From Gammaproteobacteria bacterium (GTDB lineage: Bacteria > Pseudomonadota > Gammaproteobacteria > Xanthomonadales > SZUA-36): DNA of 64,000 nucleotides. The stretch covers positions 1-64,000 of the forward strand of contig JAUHYP010000003.1 of assembly GCA_030426265.1 (NCBI GenBank). Reading direction: 5' to 3'. Under the pieces are notes generated by a model, which was not told the DNA's origin, did not search any database, and was given only the letters and a program-made list of their open reading frames with translations. Positions within the stretch are counted from its first letter, which is position 1; every line of letters begins with the position of its first letter. Below, in pieces: positions 10,057 to 17,953 of the stretch. A program made the translations under genes and the position numbers.

Positions 10057-10075
10057 GGCCTGACAACAGGCCCTA
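10054..10075. terminator. Hairpin spanning both stop codons of a convergent gene pair
   Basis: TAGGGCCTG-ACAA-CAGGCCCTA is a perfect 9-base stem with a 4-base loop. The left TAG is the hemL stop and the right CTA is the stop of the minus-strand gene. The 16-base intergenic gap lies entirely inside it. It has no T-run, so it would act as a shared 3' end stabiliser or a weak bidirectional terminator. Confidence 0.65.
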
Positions 10076-12991
10076 GCGCCGTTCGATCTCCTGCCAGGTG
10101 CAGCGGTCGCAGCCGTCGGCGGGCACCAGGAGCTCGCTGCCCCAGGACGTGGTGAACAGGCCGCCCCAGTGGATCACGAACAGGCGGTCGTTGTGGATCA
10201 CGCCGCGCGTGGTTCGGTCCATGCTGTAGCTGTCGTAGTACACCGCATTTTCCCGGGGGACGGAGGTCCAGTCGGCCAGGTCGGCCCGGCCGAGGCGATC
10301 CAGTCGCACCGCGCCCCGTTCACCCACGATTTCGTACATCAGCGCGCCCGTGGCCAGCCACGGATAGGACCAGGACGGGTCGGGGCTGTAGACGCCGTCC
10401 CGGGGCCCGTGCACGTCCACCGGCAGGCTGAACCGGTGCGGGCGTCCGATGGTGGCGTCGCCCGGCAGCCAGGTGAAATTGTGATGGGACTGGAGCACCG
10501 GCGTGGAGCTGCCACTGTCGCCGATCGTGTCCTCGTCCAGCAGGACCGGCGCGCCCGGGTCGGACACGTCGAACAGGCCGACCAGCACGCCCTGCTCGAC
10601 CGTGAATTCCTGGGGTGTCCCTTCGTTGACGTTGATCGCGTCCATGCCCACGCCCAGCAACAGGTCCGCGCCCACCGGGTGGAGGTACTCGGAATAGCCG
10701 GGAATCTCCAGGGCGCCGAGCACGAAGGGATCGTTCGGGTTCGACAGGTCGAGCGCGTACAGCGGGTCGATACGGCGGAAGGTCACCACGTAGCCCCGGT
10801 CGCCGAAAAAGCGCACGGCGTGCACGCTCTCTTCCGGCTTGCCGATGCGCTCCGGACGCTGGTCGTTGGGGAGGACGGCGCGCACGGGCAACAGGAAGTC
10901 GCCGCCCGCCTCGGTGCCGAGAACGGTCAACCGGTTGCTGCCCGCATCGCCCCAGCGCTCCTGCCACCAGCCCGAATCGCTGAGCACCCTGAGGGCGCCT
11001 TCGTGTTCGCTGAGGCGGAACGCCAACCGCCGGGGATCATGGCCGATGCCGCCCTCGATGGTTCCGGAGCCGGCGTATTCCACGCCCTTGTCGCTGATGG
11101 AGAAACGGTGCAGGTCCGTGTCCACGTAGGGCCCGAGCGTCACGCGGCCTTCGGGGGTGATCTCGACATGCTGTCGAGCGCCGGCCACCCAGACGCCTTC
11201 GGGCGTCGCATACAGCCCGTCGGCGCGGCCCAGGATGGCGGCGCTGACCGGGGGCGCCCCCAGGTCGTTGACGTCGAACACGCTGAGCACGTTCAGTTCC
11301 GCCGACAGGCGGTGGCCGGGCAGGGGCGGGATCATCACGCGGTCGGCGGTGACCAGTGTGTGCTCGGAACCGTCTCCCAGGCGGACCCGGGGCAGCAGCA
11401 TTTCGCCGTCCAGGGCCGCGAGGATGGCGCGGAATTCCTCCTGCGTGTAGGCCTCCTTCTGTTCTTCGGAGGGCAGGAACCGGGCCGCGATCGCGTGGAA
11501 ATCGGGTTGGTAACTGGTCAGCAGGAACAGCCGGTCCCCGATGAGCCGGCTGGAGGTGATCCGGCCGTCGATGACCAGTGAGACGTCGACCGTTTCGTCC
11601 GTTCCCTCACCATACTCCCAGGCCTGGACGATGGACCGGGACAGTCCGGTGCCCCAGCAGCTCGATTCCACCTGGCTGCCGAGGTAGAGCATGCGGTTCG
11701 TGTCCTCGGCGCCGGCGTGCAGGAACAGCCCTTCACCCTCGAGGGTGTGCTGGGGACGCTGGACCTCGGGGTAGGTGACCTCGTAGCGCGCTTCGAAGGA
11801 CGGGTTGCCGGCGCCCGGACTCACCTGCCAGCGGGTGATCGATTGCAGGTAATGGCCCTCGTCTCCCTCGCCGTCTTCCGCGGACTCGAAACGCGTTCCG
11901 AAATCCGCCGCGTCGATGCTGAACAGCAGGTCGGTTGTGGCCTTGACCAGGTCCGCCTCGTCCACGCCCGCTTCCTGCACGTTCGTGCCGGAAACCAGCT
12001 CGCCATTGCCGGCATCCGTCGGCGGCGCCGGGCTGAGGATGGGCGCCGGGGCGCAGATGATCGGCATGTCGTAGGTGGGCGAGGCCCGGTAGGCGCGGTC
12101 GAAGAAGTATTTCAGCGCGTCCGCCGAGGCCAGTTTGGCCATCGCGGCGGGGTGGGGGCGGCCCGATGGCGGATCCGAGAGCATCAGCTGCCCCGCATCG
12201 GGGCGGTCCCAGCTGCCGTCGCTGGTCTGCAAGGCGATGCGCATGCGGGTTTCGGTCTCGAACTGCAGGGACAGCTCGCCCGCGGGCTGGTGGTCCGAGC
12301 CGACCTGGGCGCAGGAGGGGCAGCTGCCCGTGGTGCGGGTCAGGTCGAAGCTCCGTTCGCCTTCGCGCCCTGCGCCGGAACGCCAGGTGGGCTCGCCGGC
12401 GGCGTCGTAGTGGTAGATCACCGCATAGACGTGTTCACCCTGGGTTTGCACCGACACGCCGTAACCGGTTTCGGCCGGGTCGTGGTAGATGCCGCTGTGG
12501 TCGTCCAGCGTGGGGGTGGAGGCGAACCGGAACGGCTGCAGGACACGCGAGCCTTCCGCCTCGCCCAGTTCCCACTGGACCTCGGCGATCTGTGGGTGCG
12601 GAAACGCGATGTCCAGCGACCCGACCACCTCGAAGCCTTCGACGGCGCCGGCGGCGTGGTCCCAGCGGTGGCGCATCAGGTCGCCCTGGAAGCGGTTGCC
12701 GTCCATGTCGGCGCCGGCCGTGTACCACACCGGGCTGCCGTCCTCGGCGTAGGTGTACCAGACCACGAACAGGAAATCGCCGATGCGGTTGAGGTCCCAG
12801 CCGCTGCCACCGTGGTCGGGGCTCCACCACAGGCCCTGGCGGAGCACGACGTCGGTCGGGCCCGCGATGCCGTTGCTGGCGCCGGGGTCGTCTGCCTGCA
12901 GGGGTGCGGCAAAAGACAGCGCCACTGCGAGTGCGGCGCCGATGCGTGTCGTGAACCCGCCGGGGCGGCGGGCCGTGTGCGTGAGCGGCAA
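10073..12991 (-). CDS. Secreted beta-propeller protein with two N-terminal W/Y-P-G-x-G modules
   Basis: This is a large exported protein, 972 residues from the TTG at 12991. I prefer that start because AGGAGG sits six bases before it and the product opens directly with a signal peptide (TTRIGAALAVALSFAAPLQA); the ORF-track start at 13054 adds 21 residues. Residues about 50-165 and 163-274 are two copies of a module with the pattern G-x-W/Y-x-x-P-x-x-x-G-x-G (GLWWSPDHGGSGWDL and GIYHDPAETGYGVSV). The remaining ~650 residues match the secreted beta-propeller family (Beta_propel-type), with LVKATTDLLFSIDA and repeated blade text such as VHAVRFFGDRGYVVTF and LYALDLSNPNDPFVLG. The function is unknown, perhaps extracellular binding. 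The gene converges on hemL. Confidence 0.8.
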   Translation of the reverse strand: MPLTHTARRPGGFTTRIGAALAVALSFAAPLQADDPGASNGIAGPTDVVLRQGLWWSPDHGGSGWDLNRIGDFLFVVWYTYAEDGSPVWYTAGADMDGNRFQGDLMRHRWDHAAGAVEGFEVVGSLDIAFPHPQIAEVQWELGEAEGSRVLQPFRFASTPTLDDHSGIYHDPAETGYGVSVQTQGEHVYAVIYHYDAAGEPTWRSGAGREGERSFDLTRTTGSCPSCAQVGSDHQPAGELSLQFETETRMRIALQTSDGSWDRPDAGQLMLSDPPSGRPHPAAMAKLASADALKYFFDRAYRASPTYDMPIICAPAPILSPAPPTDAGNGELVSGTNVQEAGVDEADLVKATTDLLFSIDAADFGTRFESAEDGEGDEGHYLQSITRWQVSPGAGNPSFEARYEVTYPEVQRPQHTLEGEGLFLHAGAEDTNRMLYLGSQVESSCWGTGLSRSIVQAWEYGEGTDETVDVSLVIDGRITSSRLIGDRLFLLTSYQPDFHAIAARFLPSEEQKEAYTQEEFRAILAALDGEMLLPRVRLGDGSEHTLVTADRVMIPPLPGHRLSAELNVLSVFDVNDLGAPPVSAAILGRADGLYATPEGVWVAGARQHVEITPEGRVTLGPYVDTDLHRFSISDKGVEYAGSGTIEGGIGHDPRRLAFRLSEHEGALRVLSDSGWWQERWGDAGSNRLTVLGTEAGGDFLLPVRAVLPNDQRPERIGKPEESVHAVRFFGDRGYVVTFRRIDPLYALDLSNPNDPFVLGALEIPGYSEYLHPVGADLLLGVGMDAINVNEGTPQEFTVEQGVLVGLFDVSDPGAPVLLDEDTIGDSGSSTPVLQSHHNFTWLPGDATIGRPHRFSLPVDVHGPRDGVYSPDPSWSYPWLATGALMYEIVGERGAVRLDRLGRADLADWTSVPRENAVYYDSYSMDRTTRGVIHNDRLFVIHWGGLFTTSWGSELLVPADGCDRCTWQEIERR

Positions 12992-13020
12992 GGAGGACCT
13001 CCTGTCCTTGGACGGGTTGA

Positions 13021-13033
13021 CCTGTCCCCCCAA
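13021..13033. repeat. 13-base repeat CCTGTCCCCCCAA, copy 1
   Basis: The same 13 bases recur at 40460-40472. On the minus strand both read TTGGGGGGACAGG just upstream of, or at, a minus-strand gene start. It resembles the GGGGACAG cores of short dispersed repeats in some gammaproteobacteria, but two copies cannot establish a family. Confidence 0.4.
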
Positions 13034-13090
13034 TGTTAGCATCCGCCGGGGCATTCGGCAGGCGCCGCGGGACGGCTGGACCGGCGCTGC

Positions 13091-14029: not shown

Positions 14030-16120
14030 ATGGACAACGGCTACCTGCAGGAACTGCTCAACTGGATCTCGGAAAACCCCGGGTGGTCCGGCGCGGTGCT
14101 GTTCCTCATCGCCTTCATCGAATCGCTGGTGGTGGTGGGCATCTTTCTGCCGGGCATCCTCATCCTGTTCGGCATCGGCGCCCTGCTGGGGCTGGGGGAC
14201 GCTTCCCTGGCCCCGATCTGGATCGGGGGGTCGCTGGGCGCCTTCTGCGGCGACCTGTTCAGTTTCTGGATCGGGCACCGCTACCAGAACCAGCTGCGGC
14301 GCGTGTGGCCGTTCTCGCGCTACCCCGGCATGCTGTTGCGCGGCGCGGAATTCTTCCGCCGGTTCGGCCTGTGGAGCATCCTCGCGGGCCGGTTCATCGG
14401 CCCCCTGCGCCCCATCATCCCGACCACGGCGGGCATGCTCGGGATGCCGTTGGGCCGGTTCCTGGCCGTGTGCATCCCGGGCTGCATCCTGTGGACGCCC
14501 GCCTACCTGCTTCCGGGCATGCTGTTCGGCGACGCCCTGGAAGTGGCGGCCGAATACGCCGGGCGCCTGGCCCTGGTGATCGGCCTGGCGGTCGGCATCA
14601 CCTGGTTCTGCCTGTGGTTGATCCGCTTGCTCTACGAACTGGGCGTGGTCTGGTCGGCGCGCTGGCTGCGCCGCGCCATCCGCTGGTCACGGCGCCACCC
14701 CGTTCTGGGGCGCGTTTCCGGGCCGATCATCGACCCGTCGCAACCGGAAGTGTTGTCGGTGAGCACCCTGGGCCTGCTGCTGGTGGCGGCCCTGTGCGGG
14801 CTCGTACTGCTGCTGTTCCTCGGCCCCTTCGGTTCCGAACCGGGGCGCAGCGACCTGGCCGTGCTGGCCTGGACCCAGACCCTGCGCAACGACATCACCG
14901 ATCCATTGATGGTGGCCATCAGCCAGCTCTCGCGCACCTGGGTCCTGCTGCCGACCGTGGTGGCCACCGCCCTGTGGCTGCTGGGCGCCAACCGCATCAA
15001 CGCCGCCGCGCACTGGGGCGTGGCCATGGCCGGGGGGCTGGCCCTGCAGTTGCTGATGGATTGGACCCTGCGCTCCATGCCGTTGACCGAAGTCGCGGGC
15101 CAGTCCATGACCTTCCTGCCCAGCGCGCCGATGACCTTCGCCACCGTGGTGCTGGGGTTCTTTTCCGTGATGGTGGCCAAGGAACTGCGCCGCCGGCACC
15201 GTCGCTGGCCCTACCTGGCCTCCACCCTGCTGCTGACCCTGCTGGCCATGGCCCGTGTGTACCTGGGCCTGGACTGGCTCAGTGGCGCGCTGGTGGGCTT
15301 CATCCTGGGCATGGCATGGACGGCGATCGTCGGCATGGCCTACCGGGCGCGCGCCATGCGGGCCTTCTCCGGCACCATGGTCTGCGCCATTTTCTACGGC
15401 ACCCTGGCGCTGACCTTTACCTGGCAGGTGGGCGTCCATCTCGAAAAGGACCTGGTCGCCGTGCGCATTCCGGTCCCGGAATCGCACCTGACGGAGCAGG
15501 CGTGGTGGGAACAGGAATGGCGCACGCTGCCGGAGCAGCGCACGCGCTCCGCATCCGTGGCCGTCCAGGCGTTCAACCTGCAGGTCGCCCTGCCGGTGGG
15601 CACGGTCGTAGAGGACCTCACCGACAAGGACTGGGAGCACGTCGAACCGGCGACCTGGCGGTGGTTCCTCAAGTCGCTCAACCCGGAAGCGAACCAGCGA
15701 ACCCTGCCACTGACCGGGCGAAATTTCCTGGGGCAGGGCGAGGTGCTGGTGCTGCGCCGCGCTACCGACGACCCGCAACGGCAATGGGTGTTGCGGCTTT
15801 GGGATTCCGGGGTTCGCCTGGGGGAGGCCGCCACACCGGTCTATCTCGGCCAGTACACCGTCGAGCAGCTGGAGCAGCGCCTGTGGGTGTTCAGCCACTG
15901 GCGGCCGCAGCCCTCTGCTGAAGGAGATCTCAGGTCGTTCGGGGCCGGTTGGCCGGGAGTGATGGTGCGTGAGGCCCGGGAGGGCCTGCTGCTCATTCGT
16001 CCGGGGAGTCCGTCTGGAACCGCGGCAGCACTTCCAGCAGGGCCTGCAGCCGATCCAGCGGTGCTTCCAGTTCCAGCAGGGCCTGTTTCTCCGCCACATC
16101 CAGCGGCAGCAGCTCGGTAA
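14030..16120 (+). CDS. DedA / PAP2-like / LssY_C fusion membrane protein
   Basis: This 696-residue inner-membrane protein has three parts. Residues about 1-215 are a DedA/VTT domain (FIESLVVVGIFLPGIL, the re-entrant AGRFIGPLRPIIPTTAG), a family linked to lipid scrambling and membrane homeostasis. Residues about 240-450 are a PAP2-like six-helix domain. Residues about 470-640 match the LssY C-terminal domain (DWEHVEPATWRW, GQYTVEQLEQRLWVFSHW). The PAP2 active-site motifs are altered: PSAP replaces PSGH, and YLGLDWLSGAL replaces YLGxHxxSD. So phosphatase activity is doubtful. The last ~43 residues are Ala/Pro-rich and overlap the convergent LON-domain gene by 128 bases, so the true end may be earlier. 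Confidence 0.85.
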   Translation: MDNGYLQELLNWISENPGWSGAVLFLIAFIESLVVVGIFLPGILILFGIGALLGLGDASLAPIWIGGSLGAFCGDLFSFWIGHRYQNQLRRVWPFSRYPGMLLRGAEFFRRFGLWSILAGRFIGPLRPIIPTTAGMLGMPLGRFLAVCIPGCILWTPAYLLPGMLFGDALEVAAEYAGRLALVIGLAVGITWFCLWLIRLLYELGVVWSARWLRRAIRWSRRHPVLGRVSGPIIDPSQPEVLSVSTLGLLLVAALCGLVLLLFLGPFGSEPGRSDLAVLAWTQTLRNDITDPLMVAISQLSRTWVLLPTVVATALWLLGANRINAAAHWGVAMAGGLALQLLMDWTLRSMPLTEVAGQSMTFLPSAPMTFATVVLGFFSVMVAKELRRRHRRWPYLASTLLLTLLAMARVYLGLDWLSGALVGFILGMAWTAIVGMAYRARAMRAFSGTMVCAIFYGTLALTFTWQVGVHLEKDLVAVRIPVPESHLTEQAWWEQEWRTLPEQRTRSASVAVQAFNLQVALPVGTVVEDLTDKDWEHVEPATWRWFLKSLNPEANQRTLPLTGRNFLGQGEVLVLRRATDDPQRQWVLRLWDSGVRLGEAATPVYLGQYTVEQLEQRLWVFSHWRPQPSAEGDLRSFGAGWPGVMVREAREGLLLIRPGSPSGTAAALPAGPAADPAVLPVPAGPVSPPHPAAAAR

Positions 16121-16595
16121 GCCGGTAGCTCACCCAGGTGGCGTCGTCGGGACGGGGGTCCTCGAAGGCGGGATAGTCGGTACCGACCTTGTCCATGAAC
16201 CCGCGGATGATGTCCGCCAACAGGCCGAATTCCGGCGGCAGGGGCAGGTCGGGTTCGACCGGCAGGTATTCCACCGTGCCCAGCAGCAGGCCGTCGTCCC
16301 GCGCACGCGTGGAATGCACGACGAAACGCCGCCCGCCACGCGCGACGATGCCCAGCAGACCGTCTTCCAGTGTATGAAAGTCACGGATGTGGGCGTCCGT
16401 GCCGATGCGCACGTGCGTTGCCGGGGCGTCGTCGTCGGGGTGCAGCACCAGGACGACACCGAAGGGCCGGTCCTGGCCGGTGCACTCGCGCACCATGTCC
16501 AGGTAGCGGCGCTCGAAGATTCGCAGCGGGAGATGACCGCCGGGGACCAGGACGACGTTGAGGGGAAAGAGGGCGATGTCCGCCGTATCCGTCAC
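15993..16595 (-). CDS. LON substrate-binding domain protein
   Basis: This 200-residue protein matches the stand-alone N-terminal (substrate-binding) domain of Lon protease: IALFPLNVVLVPGGHLPLRIFERRYLDMV at the N-terminus, GLLGIVARGGRRFVV in the middle, and a C-terminal helical part (EKQALLELEAPLDRLQALLEVL). There is no ATPase or protease domain. Stand-alone LON proteins are cytosolic with poorly known roles. The GTG start overlaps the mpl stop by four bases (GTGA), so it is the last gene of that operon. The long ORF-track frame back to 17792 is a shadow of mpl. Its 3' end overlaps the end of the opposite-strand DedA fusion. Confidence 0.85.
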   Translation of the reverse strand: MTDTADIALFPLNVVLVPGGHLPLRIFERRYLDMVRECTGQDRPFGVVLVLHPDDDAPATHVRIGTDAHIRDFHTLEDGLLGIVARGGRRFVVHSTRARDDGLLLGTVEYLPVEPDLPLPPEFGLLADIIRGFMDKVGTDYPAFEDPRPDDATWVSYRLTELLPLDVAEKQALLELEAPLDRLQALLEVLPRFQTDSPDE

Positions 16596-17953
16596 CCCGA
16601 GAGTTCCTCCGTGAACCGGCGCGGCGCGGCGTCGAATCCGCCGTTGCTCATGAACACCACGTGGTCGCCCGGGCGGGCCTCCTCGAGCATCTGCTTGAGC
16701 AGGTCCCCGGTGCGCGTGACCACGCGCCCGCGCCCTTCCAGCGGCGCCAGTGCTTCCTGCGGATCCCAGTCGATGTCGTCGCCGGTCAGCAGCCAGACCC
16801 GGTCGGCGGCGATCAGCGACGGTCCCAGCCGGTCGGCGTGCACGCCGGCGCGCATGGTGTTGCTGCGCGGTTCCAGGCCCACCAGGATGCGCGCGTTGCC
16901 CACCCGGCGACGCAGGCCGGAGAGCGTCATGCGGATGGCCGTGGGATGGTGCGCGAAATCGTCGTACACCGTGATCTCGTCGAACACGCCCAGCGATTCC
17001 AGGCGCCGCTTCACGCCCCGGAACCCGGCCAGGGCGGCGACGGCCTCGCTGGGATCGACCCCGGCCGCCACGGCCGCGCCCACGGCGGAACAGGCGTTCA
17101 GCGCATTGTGTTCGCCGCAATGATCCCAGCTGACCTCGGCCACGGGCTCTCCGCCACGATAGAAGGCCAGGCGGGAACCGTCGGATTCCATCAGGCGCAC
17201 GCGCCAGTCGGCGTCCTCGGCGGTGGAAAAGCGCTCCAGCCGGCTCCAGCAGCCCTGCTTCAGCACGGTTTCGAGCTGGGGGTCGGCGCCGTTGCTCAGG
17301 ATGGTGCCCTCGCCCGGAATGGTGCGCACGAGGTGGTGGAACTGGGTGCGGATGGCGTCCACGTCCGGGTAGATGTCGGCGTGGTCGTACTCGAGGTTGT
17401 TGAGCACGACGATGCGCGGGCGGTAGTGCACGAACTTCGCGCGCTTGTCGAAGAAGGCCGTGTCGTATTCGTCCGCCTCGACCACGAACAGCTGCTCGCC
17501 GTCGCGGGCGGAGACGCCGAAATTGCGCGGCACGCCGCCGATCAGGAAGCCGGGCGCCCGGCCGGTGGCCTCCAGGATCCACGCCAGCATGCTGGACGTG
17601 GTGGTCTTGCCGTGGGTGCCCGTGACCGCCAGTACAGTCTTGCCGCGCAGCAGGTTCTCGCCGAGCCAGCGGGGTCCGGAAACATAGTTCAGGCCGCGGT
17701 TGAGCACGGCTTCCACCGCCGGGTTGCCGCGGCTGAGGGCGTTGCCGACCACCACGAGGTCCGGCGCCGGGTCGAGCTGCGCCGGGTCCCACCCCTCGGT
17801 GAGTTCGATGCCCTCGGCCTCGAGCTGCGTGCTCATGGGCGGGTAGGTATTGCGGTCGGATCCGGTGACCTTGAAGCCGGCGCGCCGCGCCAGCAGGGCC
17901 ACGCCGCCCATGAAGGTGCCGCAGATGCCGAGGATGTGGATGTGTTTGCTCAT
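16592..17953 (-). CDS. mpl: UDP-N-acetylmuramate:L-alanyl-gamma-D-glutamyl-meso-diaminopimelate ligase
   Basis: This is a 453-residue Mur-ligase family enzyme that reuses the cell-wall tripeptide by joining it to UDP-MurNAc with ATP, a recycling step. It has the N-terminal HILGICGTFMGGVALLAR, the ATP loop AVTGTHGKTTTSSML (about residue 110), the Mpl-type GGVPRNFGVSAR, EADEYDTAFFDKR with the metal-site acid, and the C-terminal YDDFAHHPTAIR. The GGVPxNF and KFVHYRP texts separate it from MurC. It overlaps the upstream membrane-protein gene (ATGA) and the downstream LON gene (GTGA) by four bases each, so the three are one operon. Confidence 0.96.
   Translation of the reverse strand: MSKHIHILGICGTFMGGVALLARRAGFKVTGSDRNTYPPMSTQLEAEGIELTEGWDPAQLDPAPDLVVVGNALSRGNPAVEAVLNRGLNYVSGPRWLGENLLRGKTVLAVTGTHGKTTTSSMLAWILEATGRAPGFLIGGVPRNFGVSARDGEQLFVVEADEYDTAFFDKRAKFVHYRPRIVVLNNLEYDHADIYPDVDAIRTQFHHLVRTIPGEGTILSNGADPQLETVLKQGCWSRLERFSTAEDADWRVRLMESDGSRLAFYRGGEPVAEVSWDHCGEHNALNACSAVGAAVAAGVDPSEAVAALAGFRGVKRRLESLGVFDEITVYDDFAHHPTAIRMTLSGLRRRVGNARILVGLEPRSNTMRAGVHADRLGPSLIAADRVWLLTGDDIDWDPQEALAPLEGRGRVVTRTGDLLKQMLEEARPGDHVVFMSNGGFDAAPRRFTEELSG

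Follow-up and report, generated by a model that had tools for sequence, protein, structure and literature searches.

Positions 14,030 to 16,120 of the window, by which we mean the whole 64,000-nucleotide stretch of DNA that was analysed, hold a single open frame in which DedA, PAP2-fold and LssY_C domains follow one another. The features considered here are given below.

14030..16120, + strand: DedA-PAP2-LssY_C three-domain membrane protein of 696 aa (open reading frame and Pfam)
14030..14734, + strand: DedA (VTT) domain, residues 1-235 (PF09335, 2e-15, 57.8 bits, cut-off 33.9)
14120..14122, + strand: E31, equivalent to YqjA E39, E or D in 177/177 homologues
14156..14158, + strand: I43, at the position of YqjA D51 (alignment to YqjA)
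14390..14410, + strand: GRFIGPLRP with R121 and R127, equivalent to YqjA R130/R136, the proposed phosphate-binding pair (alignment to YqjA)
14741..15352, + strand: PAP2-fold domain, residues 238-441, predicted to be catalytically dead (PF01569, AF2 model)
15059..15085, + strand: motif C1 position (KxxxxxxRP), reading DWTLRSMPL, K and R gone (alignment)
15119..15130, + strand: motif C2 position, reading PSAP and not PSGH (alignments, PgpB profile)
15251..15286, + strand: motif C3 position, reading ARVYLGLDWLSG for SRxYLGxHWxSD (alignments, PgpB profile)
15371..15460, + strand: helix 448-477, taken as a transmembrane helix toward the C-terminal domain (AF2 secondary structure)
15482..16009, + strand: LssY_C domain, residues ~485-660 (PF14067, 26.8 bits, cut-off 25)
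15993..16595, - strand: LON substrate-binding-domain protein, tail-to-tail with the fusion gene and overlapping it by 128 bp (PF02190, 2.2e-22)
16592..17953, - strand: mpl-like murein ligase with Mur ligase domains (domain match, conserved neighbour)

The Pfam match to the DedA (VTT) domain spans residues 41-164 and the PF14067 profile match, residues 497-612, makes the C-terminal part a member of the LssY_C family. For the PAP2 region, hmmscan on the reading frame placed PF01569 at residues 361-434 with 25.5 bits, slightly under the 27.2 cut-off, and the six-frame search of the genome gave 28.9 bits, above it. The AF2 model of the fusion has a mean pLDDT of 82.9 and a pTM of 0.74, with a disordered tail at residues 663-696, and its best match in the PDB is Bacillus subtilis PgpB/YodM (5jki; probability 1.00, TM-score 0.80 by target length, the whole-chain E-value being only 0.011). 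As modelled, the PAP2 fold has very probably been kept.

The LON-domain and mpl-like genes, both convergent with the fusion gene and downstream of it, are coupled through a GTGA overlap. A LON-type neighbour recurs in most of the Pseudomonas loci and of those in the window's family, and adjoins the intact two-domain DedA-PAP2 genes of Pseudomonas/Stutzerimonas; mpl adjoins fusions in the window's family, Larsenimonas and Halopseudomonas. This shared neighbourhood supports orthology with the type represented by PA4011 of P. aeruginosa, an already known DedA-PAP2 fusion (PMC12893004, PMC7916210), and suggests a link with the envelope or with peptidoglycan. The PA4011 type likewise has an N-terminal DedA domain with GRFIGPLRP, a C-terminal PAP2 domain and a convergent LON-domain neighbour. 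However the Pseudomonas forms, related sequences that stood in for PA4011's own in this comparison, are of ~438 aa, lack LssY_C and retain K..RP, PSGH and SRVYLGVHW..D, whereas the fusion has LssY_C and a PAP2 domain predicted to be dead. Within the gene overlap (15993-16120) the extra C-terminal 34 residues, disordered in the model, are common to the closest relative (75% identity). On the other side of the fusion a 993-aa protein with a PF09826 beta-propeller (10073-13054, - strand) is absent from the other named loci and present in that of the closest relative (L197).

The PAP2 half carries none of KxxxxxxRP, PSGH and SRxxxxxHxxxD in intact form. At C1, where the Lys and the Arg are each found in 95% of intact relatives and are lost in the window's family, D344 replaces the Lys and SMP stands where RP is expected. 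At C2 the sequence is LPSAPM (residues 363-368, nt 15116-15133), and at C3 it is ARVYLGLDWLSGAL (residues 408-421, nt 15251-15292), with D415 for the His and G419 for the Asp. The residues replaced are thus the nucleophile (C3 His), the relay (C3 Asp), the general acid (C2 His) and the phosphate clamp (C1 Lys/Arg), and of the motif residues R409, the Arg of motif 3, and the Pro-Ser of motif 2 alone are retained. The preliminary description of this locus had reported that both catalytic His and the final Asp were missing, and this is borne out, with motif 1 lost in addition. The real motifs do not lie elsewhere in the protein: MAFFT with full-length homologues sets LPSAPM and ARVYLGLDWLSGAL exactly on PSGH and SRxYLGxHWxSD, and a profile of 44 family sequences brings both stretches into register with PSGH and SRVYLGVHFVTD of 5jki (E 1.3e-26) and likewise with the motifs of Escherichia coli PgpB. 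With these two phosphatases the fusion shares the PAP2 transmembrane fold and the aligned motif positions, but it is without their two His, their Asp and their motif-1 K/R.

A frameshift or a wrong frame as the source of the loss is excluded by the single open frame and the full-length homologues. Upstream of C1 there is also an HW pair, H328-W329 (15011-15016), found without exception in the window's family and in 75-78% of intact fusions; we know of no PAP2 role for such a pair.

Homologues were sought in 274 genomes of the class (E<=1e-20) and 399 of the order, and matches, some of which span the DedA part only, were found in 112/274 and 233/399, respectively. An alignment of 183 sequences was made, window protein included, in which the window's GTDB family (f1) occupies 34 rows, two of these being pieces of one genome's locus. 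In all 34 the nucleophile His of C3 is replaced, by D in 23 and by E in 11, and so is the relay Asp, by G in 31, T in 2 and A in 1; 32/34 lack the C2 His and 33/34 retain the C3 Arg. This family-wide replacement at C3, which answers the question of conservation raised in the preliminary description, excludes sequencing error or chance as well as a loss peculiar to the source genome. A new C3 signature, YLG[LM][DE]WLSGAL, is present in nearly all of the family, with variants in one early branch. Named records, reached by a search with an alignment as query (a single sequence found no match among named genomes), put f1 among Lysobacterales MAGs; we infer the names of this family and of a second, Xanthomonadaceae-like one (f2, n=35, loci of which include L013, L063 and L092-L111).

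In f2 the C2 His is absent from 35/35 and the C3 His is present in 35/35 and the C3 Asp in 34/35. The C3 pair is lost in f178, in f179 (apparently Wenzhouxiangella), in f180 and in 2/3 of f175. Outside the order the motif-3 His/Asp pair is retained in 63/86 fusions, and the 23 losses are spread over 19 of 60 families. In a phylogeny built with FastTree from the DedA and LssY_C columns, with the PAP2 columns left out, the C3 state changes about 18 times, a count that is approximate given several long branches and in which parsimony does not separate loss from gain; 10 of the changes are forced by well-supported branches. Losses were scored on the C3 His/Asp pair, and loss of the C2 His was not in itself scored as dead because PgpB H163A keeps 27% of its activity on undecaprenyl pyrophosphate (C55-PP), while losing hydrolysis of PGP (PMC7413402). 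By analogy the f2 proteins, most of which are without equivalents of both H163 and K97, a residue dispensable in PgpB (PMC7413402), may still cut C55-PP but not PGP. One relative (G413) has, in addition to the fusion, another long DedA frame of 678 aa (C16:1116-1490), possibly a second fusion copy.

Mutagenesis of E. coli PgpB gives these replacements their weight. On C55-PP, H207A has no detectable activity, D211A has 0.07% and R104A has 2% (PMC7413402), and since the equivalents of H207, D211, R104 and H163 are all missing, the fusion should be dead. Judged from its sequence, it is highly likely to lack C55-PP/PGP phosphatase activity, and the view of the preliminary description that it is not a phosphatase is well supported by the conserved loss of nucleophile His, relay Asp and motif-1 Arg together with these mutants; the lipid-binding or scramblase-coupled scaffold that it proposed instead would be an interpretation of that loss. 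It is conceivable that the protein still acts as a phosphatase, its mechanism changed so that Asp/Glu415 serves as the nucleophile or the base, which the D or E at 415 in 34/34 family members and the retention of R409 and S365 might suggest. The C1 Arg, C2 His and C3 Asp that would have to assist are gone too, however, and the single changes D211A and H207A already suffice to leave PgpB almost or wholly inactive, so we regard this as very unlikely, although some weak or altered chemistry at the retained Arg and Ser is possible.

The dead PAP2 domain is under purifying selection. Its dN/dS (Nei-Gojobori, f1 pairs with unsaturated dS) is 0.03-0.22, with values up to 0.30 in the PAP2 core, which is near that of the DedA part, and LssY_C evolves faster in most pairs. 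Mean identities in f1 are 0.63 for DedA, 0.58 for PAP2 and 0.46 for LssY_C, conservation reaches 95% or more at 45 PAP2 positions, and neither PAP2 truncation nor relaxed selection was seen among the 34 aligned relatives. In some families outside the order the PAP2 motifs are indeed scattered and PAP2 identity is low (mean 0.24 over 26 'lost' sequences), as would be expected if the PAP2 half were a neutrally decaying remnant heading for deletion, but for the window's family the near-equal identities of the two halves, the conserved positions, the signature running across nearly all of the family and a dN/dS far under 1 make decay highly improbable. The fold and the purifying selection show that the PAP2 domain has been retained for some purpose, probably a non-enzymatic job. 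There is a functional precedent, though only that, in the eukaryotic PLPPR/PRG proteins, which are PAP2-type, have critical catalytic residues substituted and serve non-catalytic roles (PMC9520309) but belong to neurons and have no DedA fusion.

As to the DedA half, the functional set of COG0586 according to Todor et al. is E39, D51, R130 and R136 (PMC10127716). The fusion has the VTT domain and, on the second re-entrant helix, both Arg, but not the full E39 + D51 acid pair of the first re-entrant helix. R130 is conserved in 177/177 fusions and so is R136 apart from two gaps in the alignment, so that the flippase Arg pair is retained throughout, and the E39 position, D in f2 when aligned to E. 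coli YqjA, is always acidic; the D51 position is I, L, A, S, T, V or M in the 177, intact-PAP2 fusions included, and never acidic. The equivalents of E39, R130 and R136 are shared with the undecaprenyl-phosphate (C55-P) flippases of COG0586, E. coli YqjA/YghB and B. subtilis UptA, but these are without PAP2 and LssY_C and the fusion has Ile at D51. As the D51-equivalent acid is essential in characterised COG0586 proteins (PMC10127716), the DedA half of the fusions is an atypical member of the group because of this one position, in keeping with the inability of PA4011, the nearest relative to have been studied, to replace the C55-P flippase PA4029 (PMC12893004).

Elsewhere the source genome encodes BacA and one separate PAP2 protein with intact motifs (KLIKHLTHRPRP/PSGH/SRVILGLHYPTD). 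Its one other DedA is of the COG1238 type (ESSFFPIP) without the Arg pair, and DUF368 was looked for there and not found, so that no C55-P flippase candidate besides the fusion was found in this assembly, which is 97.7% complete and from which a second flippase could be absent. Twenty other DedA loci were fetched from the family, and those inspected, classed by eye, are COG0398- or COG1238-like with the exception of L285, a standalone DedA with the Arg pair in an incomplete genome without a fusion match. DUF368 is present in 6/39 family genomes, a small sample of incomplete genomes, including one without a fusion match (G442).

We suggest that the fusion is a COG0586-type DedA transporter with a PAP2 pseudophosphatase module in C55-P recycling, and put the probability of this full explanation at about 0.5; a part in C55-P recycling as such is plausible, at about even odds. 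A PA4011-like ancestor would have dephosphorylated C55-PP on the periplasmic face and handed C55-P to its own DedA half. In this lineage BacA and the genome's separate intact PAP2 could then have taken over dephosphorylation, leaving the fusion's own PAP2 half to serve the DedA half as a structural or regulatory module. Candidate roles of this module would be to make a dimer contact, to provide a lipid entry path, or to dock either the LssY_C domain or a partner phosphatase. Against this explanation stand the failure of PA4011 to replace PA4029 and the missing D51 acid, which may mean that the DedA half carries another lipid or is coupled differently. If the DedA half carried some other (phospho)lipid and PAP2 catalysis was lost as the substrate changed, the never-acidic position 51 and the behaviour of PA4011 would be accounted for. 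However, the Arg pair characteristic of C55-P-type DedAs persists throughout the fusions, no other flippase candidate was found in the source genome, and of two family genomes without a fusion match, both incomplete, one has the standalone Arg-pair DedA and the other DUF368; such a change of substrate seems rather unlikely.

Alternatively, in line with the lipid-binding reading of the preliminary description, the PAP2 half may serve as a trap for, or a sensor of, lipid phosphates: it would bind C55-P/C55-PP uncut and present it to the DedA half or gate that half. PgpB H207A turns into a tight phosphate binder, with a Tm raised by 17 C, and this is explained by R104, S161 and R201 (PMC7413402); in the window's family 94% of the sequences have the S161 equivalent and 97% the R201 equivalent, while in 88% a new Arg (R348) stands close to motif 1. 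The equivalent of R104 is lost, though, and an acid, not a neutral residue, stands in place of the nucleophile, which speaks mildly against a phosphate trap. In PgpB a nearby acid, in G162D, abolishes function, which its authors ascribe to steric block and/or electrostatic repulsion (PMC7413402). We therefore hold a trap or sensor, too, to be somewhat improbable compared with the pseudophosphatase module in C55-P recycling.

From DedA-PAP2 fusions it has been argued that the dephosphorylation of C55-PP and the flipping of C55-P are coupled (PMC10127716). The recurrent loss of PAP2 chemistry beside a conserved DedA Arg pair suggests that the coupling is often not catalytic, and a natural series of intact, C2-His-less and fully dead forms offers a handle on how the PAP2 half serves a lipid-carrier transporter. 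It might tentatively be proposed that fusions repeatedly became pseudophosphatases, at least ten of the roughly 18 C3 changes being forced, and that the fixed acid of f1 marks a new non-catalytic control of a lipid-carrier flippase. For annotation, many PAP2 matches in DedA fusions are unlikely to be phosphatases. While DedA-PAP2 fusions and catalytically substituted PAP2 proteins (PLPPRs) were already known, no account of recurrent inactivation of the fusions was found in the literature searched, and the search likewise returned nothing on LssY together with DedA or on PAP2 pseudophosphatases by that name.

The LssY_C domain, modelled alone (pLDDT 84.8), found no PDB match in a fold search. 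Two further LssY_C proteins of the genome (L275 and L276, frames of 493 and 496 aa) are lipoprotein-like, with the lipobox-like sequences LVALGGC and LLLLCAGC, which points to an extracytoplasmic location of the domain. In the fusion, helix 448-477 would lead there, and the LssY_C domain is probably periplasmic.
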